Positions 37,009-52,956 of a stretch of DNA of 64,000 bases are shown here, piece after piece. How positions within the stretch are numbered: position 1 is the first letter of the stretch; every line of letters begins with the position of its first letter. The notes beneath the pieces were generated by a model. That model saw only the letters and a list, made by a program, of their open reading frames with translations. It ran no database searches and was not told the origin of the DNA. Origin of the DNA: Billgrantia pellis (GTDB lineage Bacteria > Pseudomonadota > Gammaproteobacteria > Pseudomonadales > Halomonadaceae); assembly GCF_008297955.1 (NCBI RefSeq), contig NZ_VTPY01000003.1, forward strand, positions 434,001-498,000, given 5' to 3'. The translations under genes and the position numbers were made by a program.

Positions 37009-38259
37009 ATGAGGGAGTCGCCGCAACACGCCGAGGTCATGATCATTGGCGCCGGCATCGTCGGCCTGGCCTGCGCCTGGCACCTGCAGCGGCAGGGCTT
37101 CGAGGTCGTGTTGGTGGACCCCGAGCCCCCGGGCTCCGCCGCTTCCTCGGGCAACGCCGGCGTGCTGGCCAACTACGCCATCGAGCCCTTGGCCCAGCCC
37201 TCCATCTGGCGGCAGGCGCCGGGGCTGCTGCTATCGCCGCACTCGCCGTTTCACCTGCGCTGGCGGCACCTGCCCGGGCTCGCTCCGTGGCTGTGGCGCT
37301 TCATGCAGCACGCCAATCGTCGCAGCGCCGCCCAGGCCACTCACATCCTGAGCGAGCTACTGGCACCGGCGGTCGACGACTGGCGGCTCATCCTCGACGA
37401 CCTGGAAAAGAGCGGCAGCCTCGTGCAGCAGCGCGGCAGCCTGTGCTTTTATCTCAGCGCCAAGGGCTGGCGCGAGGCCCAGACCGAGTTCGCCGTGCGC
37501 GAGCGCTTCGGCGTCATGCAAGAGCGCCTCGACGCCAAGGCACTGGCGGAGCTGGAGCCGGCCCTTGAGGGCCGCGCCCAGGGCGGCATCCTGTTTCCCG
37601 ACGCCTGCCACGTCAGCGACCCGCTGCTCCTGGCCCAGCGCTTGGCCGAACACCTGGAAGGCCGCGGCGTTCGACGGGTGCGTGCCAAGGCACTGGGGCT
37701 CGCGTCATGCAGCAGCGGCGTCGGCATCGATACCGACCAGGCCTCCTGGCGAGCCGAAAAGGTCGTGGTCGCCGCGGGTCCCTGGTCGCAACCGCTGGCG
37801 CTGGCCGCTGGCGACCGAATTCCGCTGATCTCCGAGCGCGGCTATCATCTGGAGTTCCCCACCGTCAGGAGACTGGTCAGCCGCCCCTGTAGTCCCGGGG
37901 AGTACGCCTTCTATCTCACGCCGATGCAGGGCCGCCTGCGCATCGCCGGCACCGTGGAGCTTGGCCACAACGGCGACCCCGCCAACCCCAGGCGGCTCGC
38001 CTACATCCGCCGTCATGCCGAGGCGCTGTTCGGCCCGCTCGGCGAGCCGAGCCACACCTGGCTTGGCCTTCGGCCCTCCTTGCCCGACTCGCTTCCGGTG
38101 ATCGGCCCCGCGTCGGCCCTGCCCGGCGTCAGCTACGCCTTCGGCCACGGCCATCTGGGCCTGACCCTGGCCGCCACCACCGGGCGCCTGCTGGTGGCCA
38201 GCCTCAAGGGCGAAGCCCCCGCCTGGCTGGCCGGCTGCAGTGCCGGTCGTTTTCGCTGA
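37009..38259 (+). CDS. DadA-like D-amino-acid dehydrogenase or related FAD oxidoreductase
   Basis: A 416-residue FAD enzyme of the DAO family. The Rossmann loop is IIGAGIVGLACAWHL (residues about 8-22), with VDPEPPGSAASSGNAG after it and a C-terminal GHGHLGLTLAATTGRLL. It resembles DadA-type D-amino-acid dehydrogenases that pass electrons to the membrane chain. It starts eight bases after the ATPase gene but has no functional link to it. It converges on the amidotransferase gene with 15 bases between. The product of that pathway may include a D-amino acid; this is speculation. Confidence 0.8.
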   Translation: MRESPQHAEVMIIGAGIVGLACAWHLQRQGFEVVLVDPEPPGSAASSGNAGVLANYAIEPLAQPSIWRQAPGLLLSPHSPFHLRWRHLPGLAPWLWRFMQHANRRSAAQATHILSELLAPAVDDWRLILDDLEKSGSLVQQRGSLCFYLSAKGWREAQTEFAVRERFGVMQERLDAKALAELEPALEGRAQGGILFPDACHVSDPLLLAQRLAEHLEGRGVRRVRAKALGLASCSSGVGIDTDQASWRAEKVVVAAGPWSQPLALAAGDRIPLISERGYHLEFPTVRRLVSRPCSPGEYAFYLTPMQGRLRIAGTVELGHNGDPANPRRLAYIRRHAEALFGPLGEPSHTWLGLRPSLPDSLPVIGPASALPGVSYAFGHGHLGLTLAATTGRLLVASLKGEAPAWLAGCSAGRFR

Positions 38260-38274
38260 GTCAGGCCTACGAGC

Positions 38275-38994
38275 TCAATCGCGTGCCGCTATCGCACGCC
38301 GCAGGAAATTCAGTATCCAGCGCGCCATCAGGGTATCGTCCACCGGGGCGGCCAGCGATGTTTCTCCCTGGTTCACCCGCTCGTCGCCCACCAGCTCCCG
38401 GCGCAGCGCCATCAGGTCTCGGGAGTAGGCCTTGGTGAATTCGGGGTGCCCCTGCACACCGAGGAAGTGCTCGCCAACCTGCATCAAGTAGTGGGGGCAG
38501 AAGTCGCTGCCGCCGACAATGGTAGCCTCGGGGGGAAGGATCTCGACCTGATCCTGATGGCTGACCAGCAGGTCGATGCCCGGCTGCCAGGGCTCCATCC
38601 ACGCCGCCCGCGCCGTGACGCGGTTGAACGACATGCCTACGCCCCAGCCCCGCTCGCTCTTGACCACCTCACCGCCCAACGCCTTGGCCATCAGCTGATG
38701 GCCGAAGCAGATGCCCACCAGCGGCTTGCCATCGCGCCACAGCTCTCGCACGAAGTCGCACAGCTCGTCGACCCAGGGCAGCCCATCGTTAACGCCATAC
38801 TTCGAGCCGGTGGTCATCCAGGCGTCGACGGCATCGACATCGTCGGGAATCTCCCCGTCCAGGCAGCGCCACACCTGGAACTCCAGCGTGGGGTCGGCCC
38901 GCTGGAACAGGGCCGCGAACATTTCCGGATAGTTGCCGTGGGCCTCGCGCAGTTCTGGCGCCACGTCATCGCACTGCAATAGCCCGATGCGCAT
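38275..38994 (-). CDS. Class I glutamine amidotransferase-type hydrolase (putative gamma-glutamyl amide hydrolase)
   Basis: A 239-residue protein with the class I triad: Cys96 in GICFGHQLM, His183 and Glu185 in GVQGHPEF. It stands alone without a synthetase domain, like the gamma-glutamyl hydrolases PuuD and IpuF rather than GuaA. It is the last gene of the operon with a GS-like ligase, ALDH and iron alcohol dehydrogenase, so it probably cuts the gamma-glutamyl group from the oxidised product (inference). AAAGGAGA eight bases upstream supports ATG 38994; the longer frame is not conserved in kind. Confidence 0.85.
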   Translation of the reverse strand: MRIGLLQCDDVAPELREAHGNYPEMFAALFQRADPTLEFQVWRCLDGEIPDDVDAVDAWMTTGSKYGVNDGLPWVDELCDFVRELWRDGKPLVGICFGHQLMAKALGGEVVKSERGWGVGMSFNRVTARAAWMEPWQPGIDLLVSHQDQVEILPPEATIVGGSDFCPHYLMQVGEHFLGVQGHPEFTKAYSRDLMALRRELVGDERVNQGETSLAAPVDDTLMARWILNFLRRAIAARD

Positions 38995-39095
38995 CGGTGA
39001 ATCTCCTTTCATTGACCTTCCCTGGACACCGTCCCGTCGCACGGCACCGCCATCCCAGAAGCCCTTGAGCTTCGTCTGCAATCTTCCGACGACGC

Positions 39096-40271
39096 CTAAA
39101 GGCGGCCTTCCACGGCAGCCATGAAAATATCGCGGTATGCGTCGGCATCGAAGGCGACCGGGTTGGTGCCCGACGAAGGATCCGCCATCGCCATGCGCCC
39201 GATCTTGTCGGCCTGGCGCATATCGATGCCCAGCTCGGCCAGGGTGTGCGGAATGGCGAGCCGCTCGCGCAGGCCCAGCACCCAGTCGATCACCGCCGCC
39301 GTGCCCGGCTGGTCCAGGTTGAGATAGCGCCCGAGGCGCACCATCGGCTCGCCGATGGCGCGCTCGTTGGCACGCAGTACATAGGGCATCAGCACCGCAT
39401 TCAGCGTTCCGTGGTGGGCGTCGTAGAGCGCCCCGAGCGGATGGGCCAGGGCGTGCATGGCGCCCAGGCCGCGCTGGAAAGCGGTCGCCCCCATGCTCGA
39501 CGCCACCAGCATGTTCATGCGCGCCTCGAGGTCGCTACCGTCGCTGTAGGCGCGTAGCAGATAGCGGTCGATACGGCGCATGCCCTCGACGGCGATGCCC
39601 TCGGCCATGGGATGATAACTGGGCGAGCACCACGCCTCCAGGCAGTGCGACAACGCATCCATGCCGGTGGCGGCGGTAATCGCCGGCGGCAGGCCTACGG
39701 TCAGCTCGGGGTCGAGAATGACGGTGTCGGGCACCATGCCGGGATGGAAGATGATGCGCTTGACATGCTCCGCCTCGTCGGTAATCACCGAGGCGCGCCC
39801 CACCTCGGAGCCGGTCCCGGCAGTGGTCGGCACGGCGACGACAGGAGCGATGGCCTGGGCATCGGCATTCTTCCAGTTGTCGCCGATGTCCTCCAGCGAC
39901 CACAGCGACAACCCTTCGCGTTGATTGGCCATCAACGCCACCGCCTTGGCAGCATCGAGCCCGGAGCCACCGCCGAAGGCGATAACCCCGTCATGGCTGC
40001 CGCTGCGAAAGGCGGCCATGCCATCGAGCACGTTACGTCCGGTGGGGTTGCCCTTGATTTGGCTGAACACGGCGATGCGCAGCCCGGCGGCCTGGCACGC
40101 CTGCACGCAGTCCCGCATCATCGGCAACGCCGCCAGTCCCGGGTCGGTCACCAGCAGCGGCGCATGCATGTCCAGCGCCTTGCATGCTTCGGGCAGCTCG
40201 CGGATGCGGCCCGCTCCGGTGAGAATGTTGGCCGGATAGTTCCAACCCGTCGTGAAATGGTCGAGCGTCAT
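39096..40271 (-). CDS. Iron-containing alcohol dehydrogenase
   Basis: A 391-residue group III alcohol dehydrogenase. GGGSGLDAAKAVAL is the NAD loop and TTAGTGSEV is a family mark. Metal ligands match Asp205 and His209 (GMDALSHCLEA), His273 (MHALAHPLGALYD) and His287 (AHHG). It oxidises a primary alcohol to the aldehyde (or reverse). AGGAGG five bases upstream supports ATG 40271, 22 bases after the ALDH stop. In this operon it would oxidise a gamma-glutamylated amino alcohol, the step before the ALDH (inference). Confidence 0.88.
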   Translation of the reverse strand: MTLDHFTTGWNYPANILTGAGRIRELPEACKALDMHAPLLVTDPGLAALPMMRDCVQACQAAGLRIAVFSQIKGNPTGRNVLDGMAAFRSGSHDGVIAFGGGSGLDAAKAVALMANQREGLSLWSLEDIGDNWKNADAQAIAPVVAVPTTAGTGSEVGRASVITDEAEHVKRIIFHPGMVPDTVILDPELTVGLPPAITAATGMDALSHCLEAWCSPSYHPMAEGIAVEGMRRIDRYLLRAYSDGSDLEARMNMLVASSMGATAFQRGLGAMHALAHPLGALYDAHHGTLNAVLMPYVLRANERAIGEPMVRLGRYLNLDQPGTAAVIDWVLGLRERLAIPHTLAELGIDMRQADKIGRMAMADPSSGTNPVAFDADAYRDIFMAAVEGRL

Positions 40272-40293
40272 GTGGGCCTCCTGAGCCGCCGGT

Positions 40294-41679
40294 TCAGGCA
40301 TGCTTCAAGTGAAAGGATTTGGGCCGGGTGAGCGTTTCATAACCGATCCGCGACAGCGAACAGCCCCGCCCCGATTGCTTGACCCCGGTCCAAGCCAGCT
40401 CCGGATCGAGATAATCGCAACGATTGGTGAATACGGTACCGGCCTCGAGCCGATGGGCGATGGCCTCGCCTATTGCGACATCGCGGGTGAAGACGGCGGC
40501 GGTGAGGCCGAACCCACTGTCGTTCATCAACGCCACGGCCTCGTCGTCGGAGGATACCGGCATGATGCCGACCACCGGACCGAAGCTCTCCTCGGTCATC
40601 ACCCGCATCGAGTGGTCGACGCCGGTCAGGACCTGCGGGGCCAGATAGGCGCTGCCCGGCAGCGAGAGCGGGTAGTCGCCGGGGTCGATCCAGGCTCTGG
40701 CGCCGGCGGCGACCGCCTCTTCGATCTGGCCACGTACGAAATCCGCCGCTGCAGGGCGAACCAACGGTCCCAGAGTGGTCTCGGGGTCGGTGGGGTTACC
40801 CAGCCGAAGCTGGCGCACCCAGGCCACCGCTCGCTCGACGAAGGCGTCGAGGATCGAGGCGTGCACGTAGATGCGCTCGATGCCGCAGCAGCTCTGCCCC
40901 GAGTTGAAGAAGGCGCCGTCCATCACCCCGGGCACCGCCTCGTCGAGGTTCACGTCGGCGCGGACGTAGGCCGGGTCCTTGCCGCCCAACTCCAGGCCGG
41001 TGGCGATGAAGCGCCCGGCAACAGAGCGCTCCACCATCGCCCCGCCCCGCACCGAGCCGGTGAAGGAAACATGGTCGACCCGCCCGTCGCGGATCAGCGC
41101 CTCGGTGGCCTCGTGGGAAAGGTGCAAGTGCTGGAACACACCCTCGGGCAATCCCGCCTCGTCGAACGCCTGCTGAAAGCGCTCGGCACATAGCGGCGTC
41201 TGCGCGGAGTGCTTGAGAATCACCGCATTGCCCGCCATGATCGCGGGCACCACGGCGTTCACCGCAGTCATGAACGGAAAATTCCAGGGCGCGACGATGA
41301 ACGACACGCCCAGCGGCTCGCGCGTAATGTAGCGGGTAAAGCCGGATTTTGCGGCCAGCCGGATCGGCGTCAGCGCCTCTTCGGCCAGCGCGATCATGGT
41401 GCGTGCGCGCTCCTCGAAGCCACCGATCTCGCCGCCGGCCACGGCAATCGGCCGGCCCATCTGCCAGGTCAGCTCGCGGGCCAGCTCGTCGCGTCGCCCG
41501 ACGAAGACATCGACCATCGCCGAGCACACCCGCGCGCGCTCGTCGAGACTCGTTTCGCGCCACTCGCGCTGCGCCGCTACCGCCCTTATCAACGTCGCCT
41601 CGACCTGCCCCGGGTCGGCCTGCTCCCGCTCGACGTAGACCGAGCCGTCGACCGGGGAAATCGTTTTCTGTGTGGCCAA
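40294..41679 (-). CDS. Aldehyde dehydrogenase of the gamma-glutamyl operon (TTG start)
   Basis: A 461-residue ALDH. APWNFPFMTAVNAVVPAIMAG is the cofactor loop, Glu230 in LELGGKDP and Cys264 in NSGQSCCGIERI are catalytic. The start is TTG at 41679 with TAGGAGA seven bases upstream; no ATG fits better. Length is a little shorter than ALDH1-like enzymes and close to the PuuC/betaine-aldehyde group. It sits between the GS-like ligase and the alcohol dehydrogenase and probably turns an aldehyde to an acid. A 172-base spacer with a small hairpin precedes it. Confidence 0.87.
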   Translation of the reverse strand: MATQKTISPVDGSVYVEREQADPGQVEATLIRAVAAQREWRETSLDERARVCSAMVDVFVGRRDELARELTWQMGRPIAVAGGEIGGFEERARTMIALAEEALTPIRLAAKSGFTRYITREPLGVSFIVAPWNFPFMTAVNAVVPAIMAGNAVILKHSAQTPLCAERFQQAFDEAGLPEGVFQHLHLSHEATEALIRDGRVDHVSFTGSVRGGAMVERSVAGRFIATGLELGGKDPAYVRADVNLDEAVPGVMDGAFFNSGQSCCGIERIYVHASILDAFVERAVAWVRQLRLGNPTDPETTLGPLVRPAAADFVRGQIEEAVAAGARAWIDPGDYPLSLPGSAYLAPQVLTGVDHSMRVMTEESFGPVVGIMPVSSDDEAVALMNDSGFGLTAAVFTRDVAIGEAIAHRLEAGTVFTNRCDYLDPELAWTGVKQSGRGCSLSRIGYETLTRPKSFHLKHA

Positions 41680-41776
41680 TTGGCGTTCTCCTACTCATTG
41701 GTGCACCGAAAGAAACAAGAGAAGACGCGTCATGAGCGAACGCAGGTCGTGCGCGGCCGGAGCGCAGGAACCGGAG

Positions 41777-41790
41777 CATACTTCAGTATG
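41777..41790 (-). repeat. Short hairpin in the GS-ALDH spacer
   Basis: CATACT (41777-41782), TC, AGTATG (41785-41790) is a six-pair inverted repeat, flanked by less regular complementary arms (GGAACCGGAG and GAGGATTCC). The 172-base spacer 41680-41851 has no other feature I can support. It may be an RNA processing or repeat element. Confidence 0.35.
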
Positions 41791-41851
41791 TGAGGATTCC
41801 GAGCACCGCCCGCGTGCATGATGCGGAGCGCAATAGCGTATGACTTGTTTC

Positions 41852-43231
41852 TCAGATGATTTCGAAATAGCGGTCCAACTCCCAATCCGTAATATGGCGC
41901 CGGAATTGCCTTTCCTCCCACTCCCGGGTGGCCGCGAAGTGCTCGACGAAGGCGTCGCCGAACAGGTTGCGTGCCGCTTCCGAGGCCCTGAGCCGCTGGG
42001 CGGCCTCCCACAGCGTGCGCGACAGCGCCTGATGCGGGGGATGCTCGAGTTCATAGGCGTTGCCGATCACCGCCGCGTCCGGCTCCAGACGATGCTCGAT
42101 GCCGTGAAGCCCGGCGCCGATCGCCGCCGCCAGCGCCAGGTAGGGATTGGCGTCGGCACTGCCCAGGCGATACTCGACCCGCTGCGATTTGGCGCTGCCC
42201 GGAATCACGCGCAGCGCAGTGGTACGGTTCTCCACCCCCCAGGTGGCGTCGGTGGGTGCCCAGAATCCCGGGATCAGACGGGTGTAGCTGTTGATCGTGG
42301 GCGCGAACATGGCGAGGAACTCCGGCATCAGCTTCTGCTGGCCGGCGAGAAAGTGACGCTGAATATCGCTCATTCCGTGGGGCTTGTCGGCATCGAAGAA
42401 GGCCGACTCGTGGCTATCGGCGTGATTGAGCGACAGGTGGATATGCCCGCTCTGGCCGGGGTAGTCCGGCGACCATTTGGCCATGAAGGTGGCCATCAGC
42501 CCGCGGCGCTGTGCCCATACCTTGGTGAAGGTCTTGAACAGCGCGCCCTTGTCGCCGGCGGCAAGGGCCTCATCGACGCAGATCGCCGCCTCCAGCACGC
42601 CGGGGCCGGTCTCGGTGTGCAACCCCTCGATGGGGAAGTCCATGGCCTCGGCCAGCGCCAGCAGCTCGTGATAGAGCTCGCCATGCACGGAGCTCCTGAG
42701 CATGGAATAGCCCATCATGTCGGGGGTTAGGGGCCTCAGATGGCGAAAGCCCTTCTCGCGGATCGATTCCGGCGTCTCCTGGAAGAGGAAGAACTCGTAT
42801 TCCAGCGCACCGCAGGCGACGAAGCCCATCTCACGCGCCCGAGCCAGCACCCTGCGCAACAGCCCACGCGGGCAGATCGTCTCCGCCGGACCGGTGAATT
42901 CGGCCAGGAACAGCAACATATCGCCCTCGCAGGGCAGCTCGCGGCAGCTCTCGGGCAGAACGCGCAGCGTCGCATCCGGATAGCCCGTGTGCCAGCCGGT
43001 GTAGGTCACGTTGTCGTAGAGCTCGTCCTTGCTGTCCCAGCCCAGCACCACGTCGCAGAAGGCGAAGCCCGCCTCCAGCGCATGGAAGAATTTGTCGCGC
43101 CGCATGTACTTGCCGACCATCACGCCATCCATGTCGAACATGCCTACCTTGACGTGGGTCAGGCCACGCTGTTCGACGATCCGCCTGGCACCGTCGGCAT
43201 CCTTCACGTCTCTCGCCTGAAGTCGGCTCAT
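41852..43231 (-). CDS. Glutamine-synthetase-like gamma-glutamyl ligase (PuuA/IpuC group)
   Basis: A 459-residue GS-family protein. ATP and metal residues are seen in ALEYEFFLFQE, HTETGPGVLEAAI, SGHIHLSL, ENRTTALRVI and VEYRLGSADANPYLALAA. The whole is close to gamma-glutamylamide ligases (PuuA, IpuC) rather than GlnA. These attach glutamate to an amine with ATP. GAGGAAG seven bases upstream of ATG 43231. It lies 85 bases after the TRAP binding-protein gene, and the three downstream enzymes complete a glutamylated oxidation route. Confidence 0.85.
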   Translation of the reverse strand: MSRLQARDVKDADGARRIVEQRGLTHVKVGMFDMDGVMVGKYMRRDKFFHALEAGFAFCDVVLGWDSKDELYDNVTYTGWHTGYPDATLRVLPESCRELPCEGDMLLFLAEFTGPAETICPRGLLRRVLARAREMGFVACGALEYEFFLFQETPESIREKGFRHLRPLTPDMMGYSMLRSSVHGELYHELLALAEAMDFPIEGLHTETGPGVLEAAICVDEALAAGDKGALFKTFTKVWAQRRGLMATFMAKWSPDYPGQSGHIHLSLNHADSHESAFFDADKPHGMSDIQRHFLAGQQKLMPEFLAMFAPTINSYTRLIPGFWAPTDATWGVENRTTALRVIPGSAKSQRVEYRLGSADANPYLALAAAIGAGLHGIEHRLEPDAAVIGNAYELEHPPHQALSRTLWEAAQRLRASEAARNLFGDAFVEHFAATREWEERQFRRHITDWELDRYFEII

Positions 43232-43316
43232 CGCTGCTTCCTCGCACGCCCTTTGTTGTCGTCGTTTGGTGGCGAACGCTGGCGGGATGCGCCGTGCCCG
43301 GCGCATCCCGCTCCGC

Positions 43317-44375
43317 TCAACCGTAGCGGTAGGGAGGTCCGGCTTGCTGCATGGTCTGGCGGTAGTTCTTGAGTATCTGTACCACCCGCGCACTGCGGTC
43401 GCTCTCCTGGGCGATCTCGTCCCAGAAGGCCAGTGCCTCGTCTTCCAGCCGCTGCCACTCCTCCTCGGGAATCGAGGTCAGCTCCAGCTTGCCGCCGGTG
43501 GTGCGGTAGTGCGCCTCGCCCCACCAGTACCAGTGCTGACGATAGTAATGGGAACTGTCCATGCACAGCTTGAACAGGGTCTGGAGATGCTCGGGCACCT
43601 CATTCCAGCGCTCGGTGTTGGCAAAATAGGAGCCAGCCCAGGCGCCGGAAATGTTGTTGGTCAGGTAGTAATTGCTGACGTCGGCCCAGCCCACGGTGTA
43701 GGCCTCGGTGATGCCCGCCCAGGCGATGCCGTCGAGCTCTCGGGTCTGCATGGCGACCTCGATGTCCTCCCATGGCAGGGTCACCGGCACCACCCCGAAG
43801 CGGCTCAGGAAGCGGCCCGCAGTGGGGAAGGTGAACACACGCTTTCCCTCGAGGTCGTCGAGGCTGCGGATCGGATCGCGGGTCACGAAGTTGCACGGAT
43901 CCCAGGCGCCCGAGCCCAGCCAGGTGACGCCCTCCACCTCGCCATAGGCCTCTTCCCAGATTTCCCTGAGGCCGTAGTGGTGGAACAGCGCCGGTACGTC
44001 GAGGCTGTAACGCGAGGCGAACGGGAAGTAGCCGCCGAACACCGAGACGTCGACCGGGGCGTTGATCGAGTCGTCGTCGCTCTGCACGGCGTCGATGGTG
44101 CCGCGTTGCATGGCGCGGAACAGCTCGCCGGTGGGCACCAACTGGTCGGCATAGTAGAGCTCGATTTCCATCTCGCCGTTGGCGGCCTTGTTGAAGGCAT
44201 CGATGGAGGGCTTGATCACGTGCTCGGCGAGTGCCGGCCCGGCGTAGGTCTGCAGGCGCCAGCGAATCGGGCTGCGCGACTGGGCATGCACGTAGGGCGC
44301 CGAGAGAGTCGTGGCCCCGACAGTGGCGGCGGTAGCCAGGCCCGCCTTCTTGAGAAAATCGCGACGATTGGTCAT
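43317..44375 (-). CDS. TRAP transporter solute-binding protein with twin-arginine signal (DctP family)
   Basis: A 352-residue binding protein. TNRRDFLKKAGLATAATVGA at the N-terminus is a clear twin-arginine signal, unusual but known for some DctP proteins. RWRLQTYAGPALAEHVI begins the mature domain and TLPWEDIEVAMQTRELDGI matches the ligand-loop region. A Tat signal means it is exported folded, perhaps with a ligand or cofactor. It is third in the operon after DctQ and DctM. The upstream gap is 79 bases. Confidence 0.88.
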   Translation of the reverse strand: MTNRRDFLKKAGLATAATVGATTLSAPYVHAQSRSPIRWRLQTYAGPALAEHVIKPSIDAFNKAANGEMEIELYYADQLVPTGELFRAMQRGTIDAVQSDDDSINAPVDVSVFGGYFPFASRYSLDVPALFHHYGLREIWEEAYGEVEGVTWLGSGAWDPCNFVTRDPIRSLDDLEGKRVFTFPTAGRFLSRFGVVPVTLPWEDIEVAMQTRELDGIAWAGITEAYTVGWADVSNYYLTNNISGAWAGSYFANTERWNEVPEHLQTLFKLCMDSSHYYRQHWYWWGEAHYRTTGGKLELTSIPEEEWQRLEDEALAFWDEIAQESDRSARVVQILKNYRQTMQQAGPPYRYG

Positions 44376-44454
44376 GGGTCTTCTCCTGCTGTTTTGCTTG
44401 TTGTCGGAAGAATCGTGGTATTCGATCGTCGTGCCGCGGTTCACCTCCTGGGAG

Positions 44455-45777
44455 TCAGTAGCCGCGATAGAGCTGCGGCAGCCACAGCGCCAGCTGCGGG
44501 AAGATCGTGATCAGCGCCAACCCGATCAACATGATGCCGACGAAGGGCCAGACGCTGCGGTAGATGTCGCCGAGCGATATCTCCGGGGGCGCCATGGCGC
44601 GCATCAGGAACAGGTTGTAGCCGAACGGCGGGGTCATGTAGGCGATCTGCACGGTGATGGTGTAGAGCACGCCATACCAGATCGGATCGAAGCCCAGGCT
44701 GATCACCAGCGGTACGTAGAGCGGCGCCACGATCACCAGCATGGCGGTATCGTCGAGGAACATGCCGAGCAGAACGTAGGAGAGCTGCATCATCACCAGT
44801 ATCTGCCATGGACTCATGCCGATACGGTCGAGGAAGATGTTCTCGATGGCCCGTACCGCACCGAGACCGTCGAACACCGCGCCGAAGCACAATGCCGCGA
44901 GGATGATCCACATGAACATGCAACTGATGCCGAGCGTCTTATGCACGGTGCTCTCGATCACCTTCCAGGTCAGGCGGCGCTTGATCAGCGCGGCCAGGGT
45001 GGCGGCCACCGCCCCTACCGCCGAACTCTCCACCAGGCTGGTCACGCCCATCAGGAACAGTCCGGTCATGAAGAAGAAAATCAGCAGCGGCAGGATGCCG
45101 GCACGCAGCAACTTGAGTTTCTCGGCCAGGCTCATCCGGCGCTCCTCGGCGGGCAACGCCGGGCCGAGATGTGGCTGCAGGCGGCAGCGAATGACGATGT
45201 AGAGCACGAACAACCCGGCCAGGATCAGCCCCGGAATGGCCCCGGCCAGCCACAGCTGGCTAACCGGTTGGCGCGCGATCATGCCGTAGAGCACCAGCAC
45301 CACGCTGGGCGGCACCAGGATCCCCAGCGAACTGCCGGCCTGGATCACGCCGGTGACCATGATCTTGTCGTAGCCGCGCCGCAGCAGTTCCGGCAGCGCG
45401 ATGGTCGCGCCGATGGCCATGCCCGCCACGCTCAGGCCGTTCATCGCCGAAACCACCACCATCAGGCCGATGGTACCCACCGCCAGGCCGCCCTTCAGCG
45501 AGCCCATCCAGACGTGGAACATCTCGTAGAGTTCGCTGGCGATACCCGACTCGGAGAGCATGTAGCCCATGTAGATGAATAGCGGCAGGGTCAGCAACGG
45601 ATACCAGTTCATCAGTTGAATGGCGGCGCTGAACGGCATTTCCACGCCGCCGTGGCCCCACAGCAGCAGCGCCGAGGCGGCGCCGACAAAGCCGATCACA
45701 CCGAACACCCGTTGCCCGGTCAGCAGCAACAACATCATGGTCGAGAACATCAGCAGAGCGATCATTTCATAGCTCAT
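44455..45777 (-). CDS. TRAP transporter large permease subunit (DctM family)
   Basis: A 440-residue protein with about twelve membrane segments, the DctM pattern (SGIASELYEMFHVWMGSL and QIAYMTPPFGYNLFLMRA are typical loops). It overlaps DctQ by four bases (ATGA at 45777), so they are made as a pair. It forms the channel for the ligand of the Tat-exported binding protein. I saw no break or change in the frame. Confidence 0.9.
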   Translation of the reverse strand: MSYEMIALLMFSTMMLLLLTGQRVFGVIGFVGAASALLLWGHGGVEMPFSAAIQLMNWYPLLTLPLFIYMGYMLSESGIASELYEMFHVWMGSLKGGLAVGTIGLMVVVSAMNGLSVAGMAIGATIALPELLRRGYDKIMVTGVIQAGSSLGILVPPSVVLVLYGMIARQPVSQLWLAGAIPGLILAGLFVLYIVIRCRLQPHLGPALPAEERRMSLAEKLKLLRAGILPLLIFFFMTGLFLMGVTSLVESSAVGAVAATLAALIKRRLTWKVIESTVHKTLGISCMFMWIILAALCFGAVFDGLGAVRAIENIFLDRIGMSPWQILVMMQLSYVLLGMFLDDTAMLVIVAPLYVPLVISLGFDPIWYGVLYTITVQIAYMTPPFGYNLFLMRAMAPPEISLGDIYRSVWPFVGIMLIGLALITIFPQLALWLPQLYRGY

Positions 45778-46304
45778 TGCCGAGTCTCCCCGTCTTCCAG
45801 GGGAATGCCACGCGCCCGGGCGATGTCCTTGAACAGGATCGCCACGCTCTGCAGCAGCATCAGCAGAACGCCGAAGGTCATGATGCTCTTGATCGGCGCC
45901 AGGGGTGGCGCCCATGAGGTGTAGCTCTTCTCGCCGTAACGCAGGGCGTACTCGGTACTGGAGATGCCGCCGGCGAGCAGCGCCCCGAGAAAGACGAGCA
46001 GCAGCACGACGGTGAGTGCATCGACGATGGCGCGGGTACGATCGGACCAGCCCGAATAGAACAGATCCATGCGTACGTGCGCGCCCATCTGCATGGCATA
46101 AGCGCCGCCAAGCATGTAGTAGGCGGCCATCATGAACTGCGAGACCTCGATGCTCCAGATCAGCGGACTGTTGAAGGCAGTGCGCGCCACCGAGGCGTAG
46201 AGCAACACGCCGATCATCGCGAAGATCAGGAACATGGTGATGCGCCCCACCACGCGGTTGAACCTATCCACCCAGCGCACGTAGAGCGTTATTATTCTTG
46301 GCAT
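45774..46304 (-). CDS. TRAP transporter small permease subunit (DctQ family)
   Basis: A 176-residue protein with four hydrophobic segments and the DctQ motif FNSPLIWSIEVSQFMMAAY. It is the first gene of the gamma-glutamyl operon; its promoter region holds a dyad that may bind the LysR protein encoded upstream. DctQ works with DctM in the inner membrane. Confidence 0.88.
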   Translation of the reverse strand: MPRIITLYVRWVDRFNRVVGRITMFLIFAMIGVLLYASVARTAFNSPLIWSIEVSQFMMAAYYMLGGAYAMQMGAHVRMDLFYSGWSDRTRAIVDALTVVLLLVFLGALLAGGISSTEYALRYGEKSYTSWAPPLAPIKSIMTFGVLLMLLQSVAILFKDIARARGIPLEDGETRQ

Positions 46305-46483: not shown

Positions 46484-47443
46484 TCAGAACCGTGTGGCCA
46501 CCTCGGCGGAAAGCCAGGGAAGGACCCGGTCGAGCTGGGCGTTAAAGTGCTTATCCAGCAGGCGCCGGCTGTCACGGGCGAGAAGCGCCGGCAGTTCGCC
46601 CAGCTCGTCGCGCCTGGCCACCAGCGTCAGTTCGCGGTTGAGCGGTGCCAATGGGAGTGGTGCCACCGTGACGTTGAGCGCCTCGAGGCCAGCCTGGTAG
46701 AGGCACAGCGGCGTGGTAATGGTCCATCCGGCACCGGCCCCGACCAAACGCAGCAAGGCGAAGGTGTTGTCGAGGTGCAGCCTGGCCGGCAGCTCGAGCT
46801 GATTCAACCGCAGATGGCGTTCGATGGCCTGGCCGATCAGCGATTGGGGAGTGTAGCGCACGAAATCCAGGTGACGGGCCAGCCAGCGCAGGTTGTCCAG
46901 CGGGCCGCTCCAGTGGCAGGGAACCACCAGGACGAAGGGCTCGCGCAGCAGGGCGTGGCGCTCCAGGCCGTCGTAATTCTCCAGCCGGTCATCGGAAACG
47001 ATGATATCCACGTGCCGGGTTAGCAGCGAGTGCGCATGCATGTGCGACAGGCCGGTGGTCAGGGTATAGTCACGGGTATAGCGCCGAATCAGCTCAATCA
47101 AGGGTTGGCCGACGGCGGTGGCCAGCGAGTCGACCAGCGCCAGGCGCACCTGATGCAAATGGCCAAAATCGCCAGATACCAGCTCGCGGCGCGTGCTGCG
47201 CGCCTCGTCCAGCAGGCGCCGGGAGCGGTCGTAGAAGAAGCGTCCGGCGCTGGTTGGCTCGAGCGGGCGGCAGTTGCGCTTGAACAGCGTGACGCCCATG
47301 CTCTCTTCCAGGTTGGCCAGGCTCTGGGACACAGACGACTGCTTGAGCCCGAGCCGCCGGGCCGCCGCACTCTGGCTGCCCTGCTCCAGGGTCTCGACGA
47401 ATATCTCCATGCTGCGAAGATCGAAACCGAAACCGCTGCGCAT
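46484..47443 (-). CDS. LysR-family transcriptional regulator
   Basis: A 319-residue LysR protein. The HTH is LEQGSQSAAARRLGLKQSSV near residues 19-38, and the rest is a ligand-binding domain. It reads in the same direction as the gamma-glutamyl operon just downstream, so it is either its regulator or its first gene. ATG 47443 has AGAGGA eight bases upstream; GTG 47479 is a longer alternative. The TraX-family gene is divergent 133 bases away. Confidence 0.85.
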   Translation of the reverse strand: MRSGFGFDLRSMEIFVETLEQGSQSAAARRLGLKQSSVSQSLANLEESMGVTLFKRNCRPLEPTSAGRFFYDRSRRLLDEARSTRRELVSGDFGHLHQVRLALVDSLATAVGQPLIELIRRYTRDYTLTTGLSHMHAHSLLTRHVDIIVSDDRLENYDGLERHALLREPFVLVVPCHWSGPLDNLRWLARHLDFVRYTPQSLIGQAIERHLRLNQLELPARLHLDNTFALLRLVGAGAGWTITTPLCLYQAGLEALNVTVAPLPLAPLNRELTLVARRDELGELPALLARDSRRLLDKHFNAQLDRVLPWLSAEVATRF

Positions 47444-47576
47444 TGCTGCTGTCCTCTTTCCGAACCGTCGCTCGTTCACGAACCGCTACCCGGCGAGAAG
47501 GAACTCCCCTCGCCGCGCCTCGGTCAACAAGGTGGCATCATTCCGCCGTCGACACGTCATCCACAGGGAGGTCACG

Positions 47577-48377
47577 ATGACCGCACAAGCCGCCGCCCTT
47601 TCGGCGCCGGATCGCCCCACCTCGACATGGACCGGCTGGGGTCAATGGCTGGCGCTCGCCACCATGACCATCGACCACCTGACCCGTTACGTGCTGCCAA
47701 GCCACTGGGAACTCGATTGGGCCGGCGCCTCGATCGGCCGGATCGCCTTTCCCTTGTTCGCCGCCATGGTCGCCTGGCATGGGCTATTCAATACCCGCAA
47801 TCCGCTGCGCTATGCCCGGCGCATCCTGATCATCGGCCTGGTGGCGCAGCTGCCCTACATGTTGATGCCACGGGCGTCCGACGCCTTCCTCCTCAATGTC
47901 TGCTTCACCCTGGCATTAGGGCTGGCCTGGGGCGCCTGGCTGCGTGACCTGTTCGCCCGCGTGCGGGCCGGCACCCTGGGCAGCCCCTGGGTAGGGCTGG
48001 GCGTCGCGGCAACGCTGGCCGTCTGGTACCTGCTCGGCGACTGGGTCGAGTACGGCCATCGCGGGTTGCTGCTGATCCCGTTGTTCATGTTGGCCATGCA
48101 TCACCTGCATGCCGCAGGCGATGGCCTGGTCGAGCGCCTGGGCGCGGTGGCCTTGTCCGTTCCGCTGCTGATCGTGGCCGGGCTGATGAACAGCTCCGAC
48201 ATGGCCAAGTCGTTCACCGTGGCCACCTGCCTGACGGTGCTGTGGCTGGCCGCCGGCGCCCATCGTCTGACCCCGGCGGTGCCCAGCGTCATGCCCCGCC
48301 GGCTGTGGCTGGCGTGGTACCCCGGCCATTTTGCCCTGATCGCCCTGTGGCTCTGGGCCTCCGGTGGCCTTGGTTGA
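47577..48377 (+). CDS. TraX-family membrane protein
   Basis: A 266-residue inner-membrane protein with about eight hydrophobic segments. The start LALATMTIDHLTRYVLP and the loop RIAFPLFAAMVAWHG match the TraX family, whose F-plasmid member acetylates pilin. Chromosomal members have unknown roles and no conjugation genes are near. AGGGAGG lies six bases before the ATG. The stop is six bases from the stop of the GGDEF/EAL gene. Confidence 0.78.
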   Translation: MTAQAAALSAPDRPTSTWTGWGQWLALATMTIDHLTRYVLPSHWELDWAGASIGRIAFPLFAAMVAWHGLFNTRNPLRYARRILIIGLVAQLPYMLMPRASDAFLLNVCFTLALGLAWGAWLRDLFARVRAGTLGSPWVGLGVAATLAVWYLLGDWVEYGHRGLLLIPLFMLAMHHLHAAGDGLVERLGAVALSVPLLIVAGLMNSSDMAKSFTVATCLTVLWLAAGAHRLTPAVPSVMPRRLWLAWYPGHFALIALWLWASGGLG

Positions 48378-50934: not shown

Positions 50935-52956
50935 ATGACCCAGCCTCGCCAGCCCGGCCAGGTCGACCCGATTCTCGCCGCCGGTGACGAACCCGCCAGT
51001 AATCCGACGTCCAACGACTACTTTGGCGATATCCTCGCGGCCCGCATGCATCGACGTACCTTGCTGCGCGGCAGCCTGGCCGCCGCGGTGGCCGCGGCCA
51101 TGTCCACCGCCTTGCCCTTCGGCAGCGCGCTGGCCGCCGGCACGCAGGCGGCCCCGACGCGCATCGGTTTCCAGGCGATCCCGGTCAGCAACACCGATAG
51201 CGTGGTAGTGCCGGAAGGCTATAACGTGCAGACCTTCATCCCGTGGGGCACGCCCATTAGCGGCTCCATGCCGGCCGCCTCTCTGGAAGCCAGCGGCGAT
51301 GACCAAGGCCACCAGGTGGGCAGCCACCACGACGGCATGCACTTCTTCCCCCTCGAAGGCAGCTCCCGCGATGGCCTTCTCGTGCTCAATCACGAGTACG
51401 TCGAGCCACGCTTCATGCATGCCGAGGCCCAAGGGCTGGCGCTCGATTCGGAGGGGTTCCCGCAGTACGAAGACGGTTCTCGTGACGCCGACCAGGTACT
51501 CAAGGAACTCAATGCTCACGGGGTATCGGTGGTCCGGGCGCGCCAGAGCGACGACGGCCAATGGCAGGTGATCGAGGACGAACGCAATCGGCGCATTACC
51601 GGCCTGACCCCGATGCGCCTGGCCGGACCGGTGGCCGGCACCGAGCACGTCACGACCAAGTACAGCCCCGACGGCAGCATGACCCGCGGCACCCTGAACA
51701 ACTGCGCCAATGGCGTCACGCCATGGAATACCTACCTCGCCGCCGAGGAAAACTGGGCCGGCTACTTCGCCAACCAGGATGCCGAGATCGATCGCCGCCA
51801 GGCTCGCTACGGCATCGAGTCGCGCAGCGAGGGACGTTATCAGTGGCACAGGGCCGCAGGCGGCGCCGATGAATTCGCGCGTTTCGACGCGAGCTCCCGC
51901 GGTGCCTCGCCGAGAGAGGATTATCGCAACGAACCTCACGGCTTTGGCTACATGGTGGAAATCGACCCTTACGATCCTTCGAGCATACCGGTCAAGCGCA
52001 CCCACCTCGGCCGCTTTGCCCACGAGGGCGTGGTCTTCGCCCCCGCCGTGGAAGGCCAGCCGGTAGTCTGCTATTCCGGCGACGACGCCCGCTTCGAGTA
52101 CATCTACAAGTTCGTCTCGGCCAAGCCCTATCAAGCCGCCAGCGCCGACGGCTCGCTACTGGACGAAGGCACGCTCTACGTGGCGAAATTCCATGAGGAT
52201 GGCAGTGGCGAATGGCTGGCGCTCGCCCCAGGGGAGAACGGGCTGACGCCGGAGAACGGCTTCGCCGACCTTGCCGAGATTCTGGTCAATGCGCGCAGCG
52301 CCGCGGACCACGTCGGCGCCACCAAGATGGATCGCCCGGAGTGGGGCGCAGTGGATCCGGCCACCGGCCAGGTCTACTTCACCCTGACCAACAACACCCG
52401 CCGCAGCGAGGAGCAAGTCGACGCCGCCAACCCGCGCGCCGAGAACCATTTCGGTCATATCGTTCGCTGGCAGGAGGACGGCACCCACGCCGCCGAACGC
52501 TTCCAGTGGGAAATCTTCCTGCTGGCCGGCGATCAGGAGAGCGGCCGCCACCTGGACGGTACCCCCCTCGATCAAGAGGCCATTTTTGCCTCGCCCGACG
52601 GCCTGTGGATCGATCCCGATCGCCGCGTGTGGATCCAGACCGACATCAGTGAATCGGTGGTCAATAGCGGTAACCACGAGGTATTCGGCAACAACCAAAT
52701 GCTGGTGGCCGACCCCGAAACCGGCGAATTGAAGCGCTTCCTCACCGGGCCCGTCGGTCAAGAGATCACCGGCATCGCCATGACACCGGACCAGCGCACC
52801 CTGTTCGTCAACGTGCAGCATCCCGGCGCCACCACATCGGCCGAGGCGTTCGCCGCAGGCGAGCTGACCAGTCACTGGCCCGAAGGGGGTAGCGCACTTC
52901 CCCGCTCGGCGACCCTGGTGATCACCCGCGAGGACGGCGGCATCATCGGCGCGTAA
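50935..52956 (+). CDS. PhoX-family periplasmic alkaline phosphatase-like protein
   Basis: A 673-residue protein of the PhoX family (DUF839). The twin-arginine signal HRRTLLRGSLAAAVAAAM is at about residues 38-55. Metal-binding segments appear in LVLNHEYVEPRF, LNNCANGVTPWNTYLAAEENW and DGLWIDPDRRVWIQTD. PhoX enzymes use calcium and iron and release phosphate from organic esters in the periplasm. TTGGAGA lies eight bases before ATG 50935. No clear Pho box is seen in the gap before it. A strong terminator follows. Confidence 0.88.
   Translation: MTQPRQPGQVDPILAAGDEPASNPTSNDYFGDILAARMHRRTLLRGSLAAAVAAAMSTALPFGSALAAGTQAAPTRIGFQAIPVSNTDSVVVPEGYNVQTFIPWGTPISGSMPAASLEASGDDQGHQVGSHHDGMHFFPLEGSSRDGLLVLNHEYVEPRFMHAEAQGLALDSEGFPQYEDGSRDADQVLKELNAHGVSVVRARQSDDGQWQVIEDERNRRITGLTPMRLAGPVAGTEHVTTKYSPDGSMTRGTLNNCANGVTPWNTYLAAEENWAGYFANQDAEIDRRQARYGIESRSEGRYQWHRAAGGADEFARFDASSRGASPREDYRNEPHGFGYMVEIDPYDPSSIPVKRTHLGRFAHEGVVFAPAVEGQPVVCYSGDDARFEYIYKFVSAKPYQAASADGSLLDEGTLYVAKFHEDGSGEWLALAPGENGLTPENGFADLAEILVNARSAADHVGATKMDRPEWGAVDPATGQVYFTLTNNTRRSEEQVDAANPRAENHFGHIVRWQEDGTHAAERFQWEIFLLAGDQESGRHLDGTPLDQEAIFASPDGLWIDPDRRVWIQTDISESVVNSGNHEVFGNNQMLVADPETGELKRFLTGPVGQEITGIAMTPDQRTLFVNVQHPGATTSAEAFAAGELTSHWPEGGSALPRSATLVITREDGGIIGA

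Follow-up and report, generated by a model that had tools for sequence, protein, structure and literature searches.

The question raised by this locus is which compound is imported and degraded by its seven co-directional genes, and whether they make up a new route. The genes lie on the minus strand at positions 38275-46304 of a 64,000-nucleotide stretch of the Billgrantia pellis genome (contig NZ_VTPY01000003.1, positions 434,001 to 498,000), called the window throughout. An earlier reading of the letters alone, hereafter the sequence-only reading, had described them as a tripartite ATP-independent periplasmic (TRAP) importer, a glutamine synthetase (GS)-like gamma-glutamyl ligase, two dehydrogenases and an amidotransferase-type hydrolase, and had suggested a possible new route for an amino alcohol, naming ethanolamine first. 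The gene families and the twin-arginine translocation (Tat) export of the binding protein were confirmed by an open reading frame (ORF) check, Pfam and TIGR01409, and the match of the binding protein to an ethanolamine-bound structure supports the uptake of an amino alcohol. The novelty was not borne out: a new pathway is rejected because the solute-binding protein (SBP) matches PDB entry 4uab and operons of this kind are already published for Phaeobacter and C. salexigens.

We conclude that the operon is very probably a second form, here called type B, of the established pathway of ethanolamine gamma-glutamylation, by which ethanolamine would be imported and then converted to glycine and glutamate; ethanolamine is the most likely substrate, and these the most likely products. 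The transporter and the chemistry are known. What appears to be new is the enzyme module, with its divergent ligase, a non-homologous class I glutamine amidotransferase (GATase) as predicted deglutamylase and a LysR regulator, together with the exchangeable transporter. The reading draws on gene content, on conservation, on the identity of the SBP to a known ethanolamine binder and on the replacement of the transporter in relatives.

Gene content and predicted pathway

The operon and the regulator gene upstream of it consist of the following features, with database matches in brackets.

46484..47479, minus strand: LysR-family regulator (PF00126 and PF03466)
45774..46304, minus strand: DctQ, small TRAP membrane subunit, EtoV-like (PF04290)
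44455..45777, minus strand: DctM, large TRAP membrane subunit, EtoW-like (PF06808)
43317..44375, minus strand: DctP, Tat-exported putative ethanolamine-binding protein, EtoX-like (PF03480; PDB 4uab/4xf5)
41852..43231, minus strand: GS-like gamma-glutamyl ligase, type B, probable gamma-glutamylethanolamide synthetase (PF00120)
40294..41679, minus strand: aldehyde dehydrogenase (ALDH) with a TTG start, proposed to convert the gamma-glutamyl-aldehyde to gamma-glutamylglycine (PF00171)
39096..40271, minus strand: iron-type alcohol dehydrogenase (Fe-ADH), proposed to convert gamma-glutamylethanolamide to the aldehyde (PF00465/PF25137)
38275..38994, minus strand: class I amidotransferase-type gamma-glutamyl peptidase (the GATase), putative deglutamylase (PF00117; 9k7i)

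The starts of the GATase (38994) and of the ligase (43231) were chosen by us and are not the longest-ORF starts; with these choices the intergenic gaps from DctQ to the GATase are -4, 79, 85, 172, 22 and 101 bp, the ATG of DctM lying within the last 4 bp of DctQ. The LysR gene, 179 bp from DctQ, is the probable regulator of the operon. Promoter and terminator scans of the locus gave results at chance level (1 found against 1.5 in shuffled sequences, and 4 against 4.5). The order DctQ-DctM-DctP-ligase-ALDH-FeADH-GATase is kept in all 26 fetched loci of the family (Halomonadaceae) that have the window type of ligase, so the grouping of these genes is not due to chance, and the conservation that the sequence-only reading had called for was found. 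Five of these 26 loci have a LysR gene in the space separating DctP from the ligase; all 26 give a LysR match, and in 2 of them it is found solely at that place.

The sequence of ligation, alcohol oxidation, aldehyde oxidation and deglutamylation put forward in the sequence-only reading is supported by this gene content, with each catalytic step, and the order of the two dehydrogenases, predicted from sequence. Ethanolamine would be imported by the EtoVWX-type TRAP transporter and joined to glutamate by the GS-like ligase with ATP, giving gamma-glutamylethanolamide. The hydroxyl group of this compound would then be oxidised to an aldehyde by the Fe-ADH and the aldehyde to gamma-glutamylglycine by the ALDH, after which the class I GATase-type peptidase would release glycine and regenerate glutamate. 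No free amino-aldehyde would form, because the amine stays blocked throughout. None of the seven genes was recognised in a Pfam scan as an amine oxidase, a hydroxylase or a transaminase. The earlier statement that an amine oxidase is missing thus holds for the operon itself, but a convergent oxidoreductase of the D-amino acid dehydrogenase kind, dependent on flavin adenine dinucleotide (FAD), adjoins its end (37009-38259, plus strand); it is present in 7 of the 26 family type-B loci.

The binding protein

A Tat signal is recognised in the window DctP by TIGR01409, at 23 bits (cut-off 16.7). The best matches of this protein among solved chains are PDB 4uab and 4xf5 (E 5e-158, 529 bits), the next match reaching 53 bits. 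Passages of PMC12410723 and PMC4646407 describe 4UAB as the SBP Csal_0678 of C. salexigens, solved with ethanolamine bound and with Glu220 as a platform, and the latter source also describes Csal_0678 as lacking the carboxylate-binding Arg. Aligned over 321 columns, the window protein and Csal_0678 are 69.5% identical, and Glu224 of the former, which corresponds to Glu220, is invariant across 39 aligned rows. The stretch LEGKRVFTFPTAGRFLSRF is identical in the two proteins, and we take it to be the site of the lost Arg. The window SBP therefore belongs to the ethanolamine-binding type: it retains the platform Glu, and the Arg is counted as lost, as in Csal_0678. Entry 4xf5 is a second structure of the same SBP, which we take to be alaninol-bound; a literature search on this entry code found no paper on the structure. 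The closest named relative among the best 80 of at least 436 is the SBP of Billgrantia antri (L003 in our numbering of loci), which is 98% identical.

Replacement of the transporter in relatives

The best evidence that ethanolamine is the substrate of the type-B enzymes comes from relatives which keep the enzymes but swap in another transporter of the ethanolamine kind. We searched 161 family genomes with cut-offs of E 1e-130 for EtoX and E 1e-180 for the type-B ligase, which were found in 39 and 43 genomes, respectively. The window type of EtoX (89-100% identity) is present in 27 genomes, every one of which has the type-B ligase (27/27), while the latter is found in none of the 12 genomes with an EtoX of the C. 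salexigens type (67-70%). At the same cut-offs, 16 of the 161 genomes have the type-B ligase without EtoX. A permease of the amino acid-polyamine-organocation (APC) superfamily lies directly upstream of the ligase in 15 of these 16 loci, where the ligase is followed by ALDH and Fe-ADH in 15 of 15 and then by the GATase in 11 of 15 (thresholds used). Six of the 15 permeases, counting the L158 copy itself, are at least 79% identical to that copy, which scores 554 bits with the ethanolamine permease model TIGR00908 (cut-off 381.75). TRAP transporter and permease occur together in one genome, which is represented twice among the loci (L012 and L137).

Exchange is also apparent on the side of the binding protein. 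In an SBP tree of 55 rows, from which 25 near-duplicates of 80 had been removed by hand, a single clade for the SBPs of type-B loci is rejected (p-AU, from the approximately unbiased test, 0.0002), indicating that transporter and enzyme module have recombined at least once. A single clade of Halomonadaceae SBPs is not rejected in the same tree (p 0.275).

Two enzyme modules on one transporter

Two sets of genes were distinguished around EtoX. Type A, named from C. salexigens (L147), comprises RpiR, a PF05013 hydrolase, DctQMP, ligase, ALDH and Fe-ADH; type B, named from the window, comprises LysR, DctQMP, ligase, ALDH, Fe-ADH and the class I GATase. The L147 ligase matches 5DM3, titled Csal_0679, nearly letter for letter over 452 residues. 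In total 118 EtoX loci were compared, 80 from a contig collection (the best 80 of the at least 436 relatives) and 38 from the family genomes, with the ligase type called within 8 kb of EtoX and identity thresholds of 60% and 50%. Some family genomes occur in both sets, so that 13 possible duplicates (L003-L015) were dropped for the corrected counts.

The type-B ligase is found at 47 of the 118 loci, the type-A ligase at 46 and neither at 25. Among the 47 type-B loci, 44 have the GATase, none has PF05013 and 3 have neither; among the 46 of type A, 44 have PF05013, none has the GATase and 2 have neither. After removal of duplicates, 34 type-B loci remain: 32 have the GATase, none has PF05013, 27 match LysR and 1 has RpiR. 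The 46 type-A loci include 44 with PF05013 and 41 with RpiR, 2 of the latter also having a LysR match. The only type-B locus with RpiR is L081, the GATase match of which is just 27% identical. Within the family alone (38 fetched loci), 26 are of type B, all with the GATase, and 12 of type A, 10 of them with PF05013. Since the ligase and hydrolase types are unmixed in every EtoX locus examined, the two enzymes may act as a matched pair.

Some of the loci are of interest in their own right. In seven from Parvibaculum and its kin (L021, L023, L024, L043, L066, L080 and L082), EtoX has neither ligase type adjacent at the thresholds used, and a flavoprotein of about 600 residues with a weak match to flavin-containing monooxygenases lies downstream in 5 of the 7. 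L030, a record titled Bacillus subtilis SK6B4, has a type-A operon with an SBP placed among Pseudochrobactrum rows, and is probably a mislabelled or contaminated assembly. L069 (Desulfopila) is a type-B operon from outside the Pseudomonadota, with two stops in the DctP stretch; its DctM was not found at the thresholds used.

Ligase, deglutamylase and dehydrogenases

With 32% identity to a type-A ligase (row L016) and about 31% to 5dm3 in a model alignment, the window ligase is not of the Csal_0679 type; it is 39% identical to the annotated ipuC product. It falls below the cut-offs of the models for type I and type III glutamate-ammonia ligases (205 against 429 and 183 against 470 bits), and in the alignment Trp323 replaces a Glu which we take to be the ammonia-site residue. 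Types A and B form separate groups in the ligase tree, where the IpuC row joins type B on a long branch (support 89, not starred). Independent recruitment of the two types is not demonstrated, as a tree with one clade holding both is not rejected (p-AU 0.656) and scores slightly better than the free tree.

The closest solved chain to the window GATase is gamma-glutamyl peptidase 1 (9k7i, E 4.7e-21), with the best stretch limited to residues 16-192. The usual substrate of that enzyme is a glutathione conjugate in plants. A putative triad of Cys96, His183 and Glu185 was located by manual count (motifs ICFGHQ and QGHPEF). The PF05013 family, to which the gamma-glutamylglycine hydrolase of the formylglutamate amidohydrolase type belongs, has no match in the whole window genome, which makes the GATase a plausible candidate for the cleavage of gamma-glutamylglycine. 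Pairs of ligase and GATase occur elsewhere in this branch of ligases, since a Burkholderia vietnamiensis plasmid holds a 59% identical ligase with ALDH and a class I GATase, next to genes for RpiR and for a Na+/solute symporter, and the ipuC plasmid also bears GATase genes. A third plasmid, whose ligase is 54% identical, encodes an aminotransferase and ABC transporters, with no GATase named nearby.

No solved chain matches the window ALDH at E 1e-75 or better. For the ALDH, type-A loci are 51-58% identical to the window and type-B loci 62-92%; for the Fe-ADH the corresponding ranges are 51-55% and 55-93%. Both enzymes being closer to those of the window within type B, they go together as a set.

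Alternative explanations

Several observations count against the preferred explanation. The ligase is nearer to the annotated IpuC than to the C. salexigens-type ligase, and its ethanolamine activity is a prediction. At the thresholds used, neither ligase type is adjacent to EtoX in 25 of the 80 contig-collection loci. Nine of the 15 permeases share no more than 40-41% identity with the L158 copy, and L167, the sole one of these that was scanned, scores 369 bits, just below the cut-off. One of the 16 EtoX-less loci (L163) has no permease at that place. Lastly, the GATase was not found in 4 of the 15 permease loci: in L172 the contig ends there, and no deglutamylase was recognised in the ORFs following the permease-ligase-ALDH-FeADH genes of L168, L170 and L173.

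The nearness to IpuC would also suit a related amino alcohol as main substrate, such as (S)-2-amino-1-propanol (alaninol) or serinol, yielding alanine or serine; the Ipu pathway passes through an alaninol conjugate, and the second SBP entry 4xf5, if alaninol-bound as we take it to be, would favour such a substrate too. A substrate of this kind we consider unlikely, given that a curated cut-off for ethanolamine permeases is exceeded by one copy of the permease found in place of EtoX and that the EtoX of Phaeobacter is reported to bind ethanolamine (PMC10132767). The resemblance to IpuC, the similar enzyme logic and a score of 171 bits with the gamma-glutamylputrescine synthetase model could instead point to a Puu- or Ipu-like system for the glutamylation of polyamines or other amines, placed by coincidence beside an ethanolamine transporter. 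That score is however far under the cut-off of 650, the seven genes have an alcohol dehydrogenase in place of an amine oxidase, hydroxylase or transaminase, and the co-occurrence of the ligase with EtoX (27 of 27 family genomes) or with an APC permease (15 of 16 others) makes such a coincidence very improbable. The Puu putrescine pathway itself is ruled out by the ligase score and the missing oxidase, and the Ipu isopropylamine pathway by the 39% identity and the lack of hydroxylating genes among the seven. Apart from the DctP family name, nothing speaks for a dicarboxylate importer placed next to unrelated enzymes, a case made scarcely credible by the conserved gene order and by the gap between the ethanolamine binder (529 bits) and the next-best solved relative (53 bits). 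Ethanolamine gamma-glutamylation remains the reading that we prefer.

Genome context and neighbouring genes

The window genome (4.35 Mb, 10 contigs) has no match for EutB (PF06751), which rules out the Eut pathway. With PF05013 also missing, and with two weak matches but none above the cut-off for the TIGR00908 permease, the operon is the one ethanolamine route of this genome recognised by these searches. The genome has four PF00120 genes. It also has many TRAP systems, with 39 DctP-family matches.

Two further genes lie beyond LysR.

47577..48377, plus strand: TraX-family membrane protein (PF05857), beside LysR
50935..52956, plus strand: PhoX alkaline phosphatase (PF05787, 544 bits; 3zwu, E 1.8e-136)

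Within the fetched flanks, all 26 type-B TRAP loci of the family have TraX, as do 8 of the 16 EtoX-less family loci; its position differs among them, and none of the 12 of type A has it. In the contig collection it occurs in 11 of 21 type-B loci (all within L003-L015), 0 of 34 of type A and 0 of 25 without either ligase, and is thus confined to Halomonadaceae in the loci examined. PhoX, about 3.5 kb beyond LysR, has a counterpart in 10 of the 26 type-B loci of the family, in one of the 16 EtoX-less loci and in none of the 12 of type A; since the family flanks extend for about 8 kb, more copies may sit just outside. The contig collection has it in 6 of 21 type-B loci, 1 of 34 type-A loci (45% identical) and 0 of 25 ligase-less ones. 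PhoX is reported to contribute to phosphoethanolamine cleavage in Phaeobacter (PMC10132767), so that the neighbouring gene could supply ethanolamine from this compound. The association of TraX and PhoX with the operon may be plain synteny within one family.

A broader picture, which we offer tentatively and hold to be somewhat short of probable, is that of two modules with different deglutamylases and deeply diverged ligases, exchanged as units on one TRAP transporter and unmixed in the EtoX loci examined. In Halomonadaceae, type B would be plugged into either the TRAP transporter or an APC ethanolamine permease, and would travel with TraX and sometimes PhoX, both perhaps being components, so far unrecognised, of a unit that scavenges phosphoethanolamine.

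In the sea, ethanolamine derived from membrane lipid serves as a nitrogen source, and etoX is reported in roughly 5-10% of ocean bacteria, with about 94% of matches in Alphaproteobacteria (PMC10132767). A census based on the C. salexigens-type ligase or on PF05013 would miss the type-B enzymes, and one based on EtoX would overlook those type-B operons in which a permease is used. The window in turn offers an uncharacterised ligase and deglutamylase with a substrate that can be predicted with some confidence.

Comparison with known systems

In the titles and abstract openings searched, no GATase-type ethanolamine operon with a TRAP transporter was named. In the Ipu cluster of Paenarthrobacter aurescens TC1 (plasmid pTC2), ipuC is likewise a GS-like ligase gene with class I glutamine amidotransferase genes nearby, and an alcohol dehydrogenase and an ALDH are also close. 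It differs from the window in its P450, ferredoxin and short-chain dehydrogenase/reductase genes, and TRAP and Fe-ADH are not named among its 16 features. GlnA4 of Streptomyces coelicolor (SCO1613) is a gamma-glutamylethanolamide synthetase in vitro (PMC6529630). The figure legend of that paper lists a glutamine amidotransferase in the cluster, as in the window, but a short-chain dehydrogenase and no Fe-ADH, and it names no TRAP transporter; SCO1615 is called a formylglutamate amidohydrolase in the text. A review table sets the PF00465 enzyme of C. salexigens beside SCO1611 (PMC9397018).

The functional roles encoded in the window are those of the EtoVWX operon of Phaeobacter sp. MED193 (MED193_10021-10056), which is described as comprising RpiR, gamma-glutamylglycine amidohydrolase, EtoV, EtoW, EtoX, ethanolamine gamma-glutamylase and two dehydrogenases; phosphoethanolamine raises the levels of its proteins, and the Kd of its EtoX for ethanolamine is 7.9 uM (PMC10132767). 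The regulator is RpiR there and LysR in the window. Related genes are said in the same source to be demonstrated functional in C. salexigens and Agrobacterium, while the C. salexigens glutamylation pathway is called an in silico prediction in PMC6529630; table 2 of the review lists its enzymes as PF00120, PF00465 and PF00171 with a PF05013 amidohydrolase (PMC9397018). The Csal_0678/0679 operon of C. salexigens (4UAB, 5DM3) shares with the window the TRAP genes DctQMP, a PF00120 ligase (about 31% identical), ALDH and Fe-ADH, in the same order. It differs in having RpiR where the window has LysR, and a PF05013 hydrolase upstream where the window has a class I GATase downstream.

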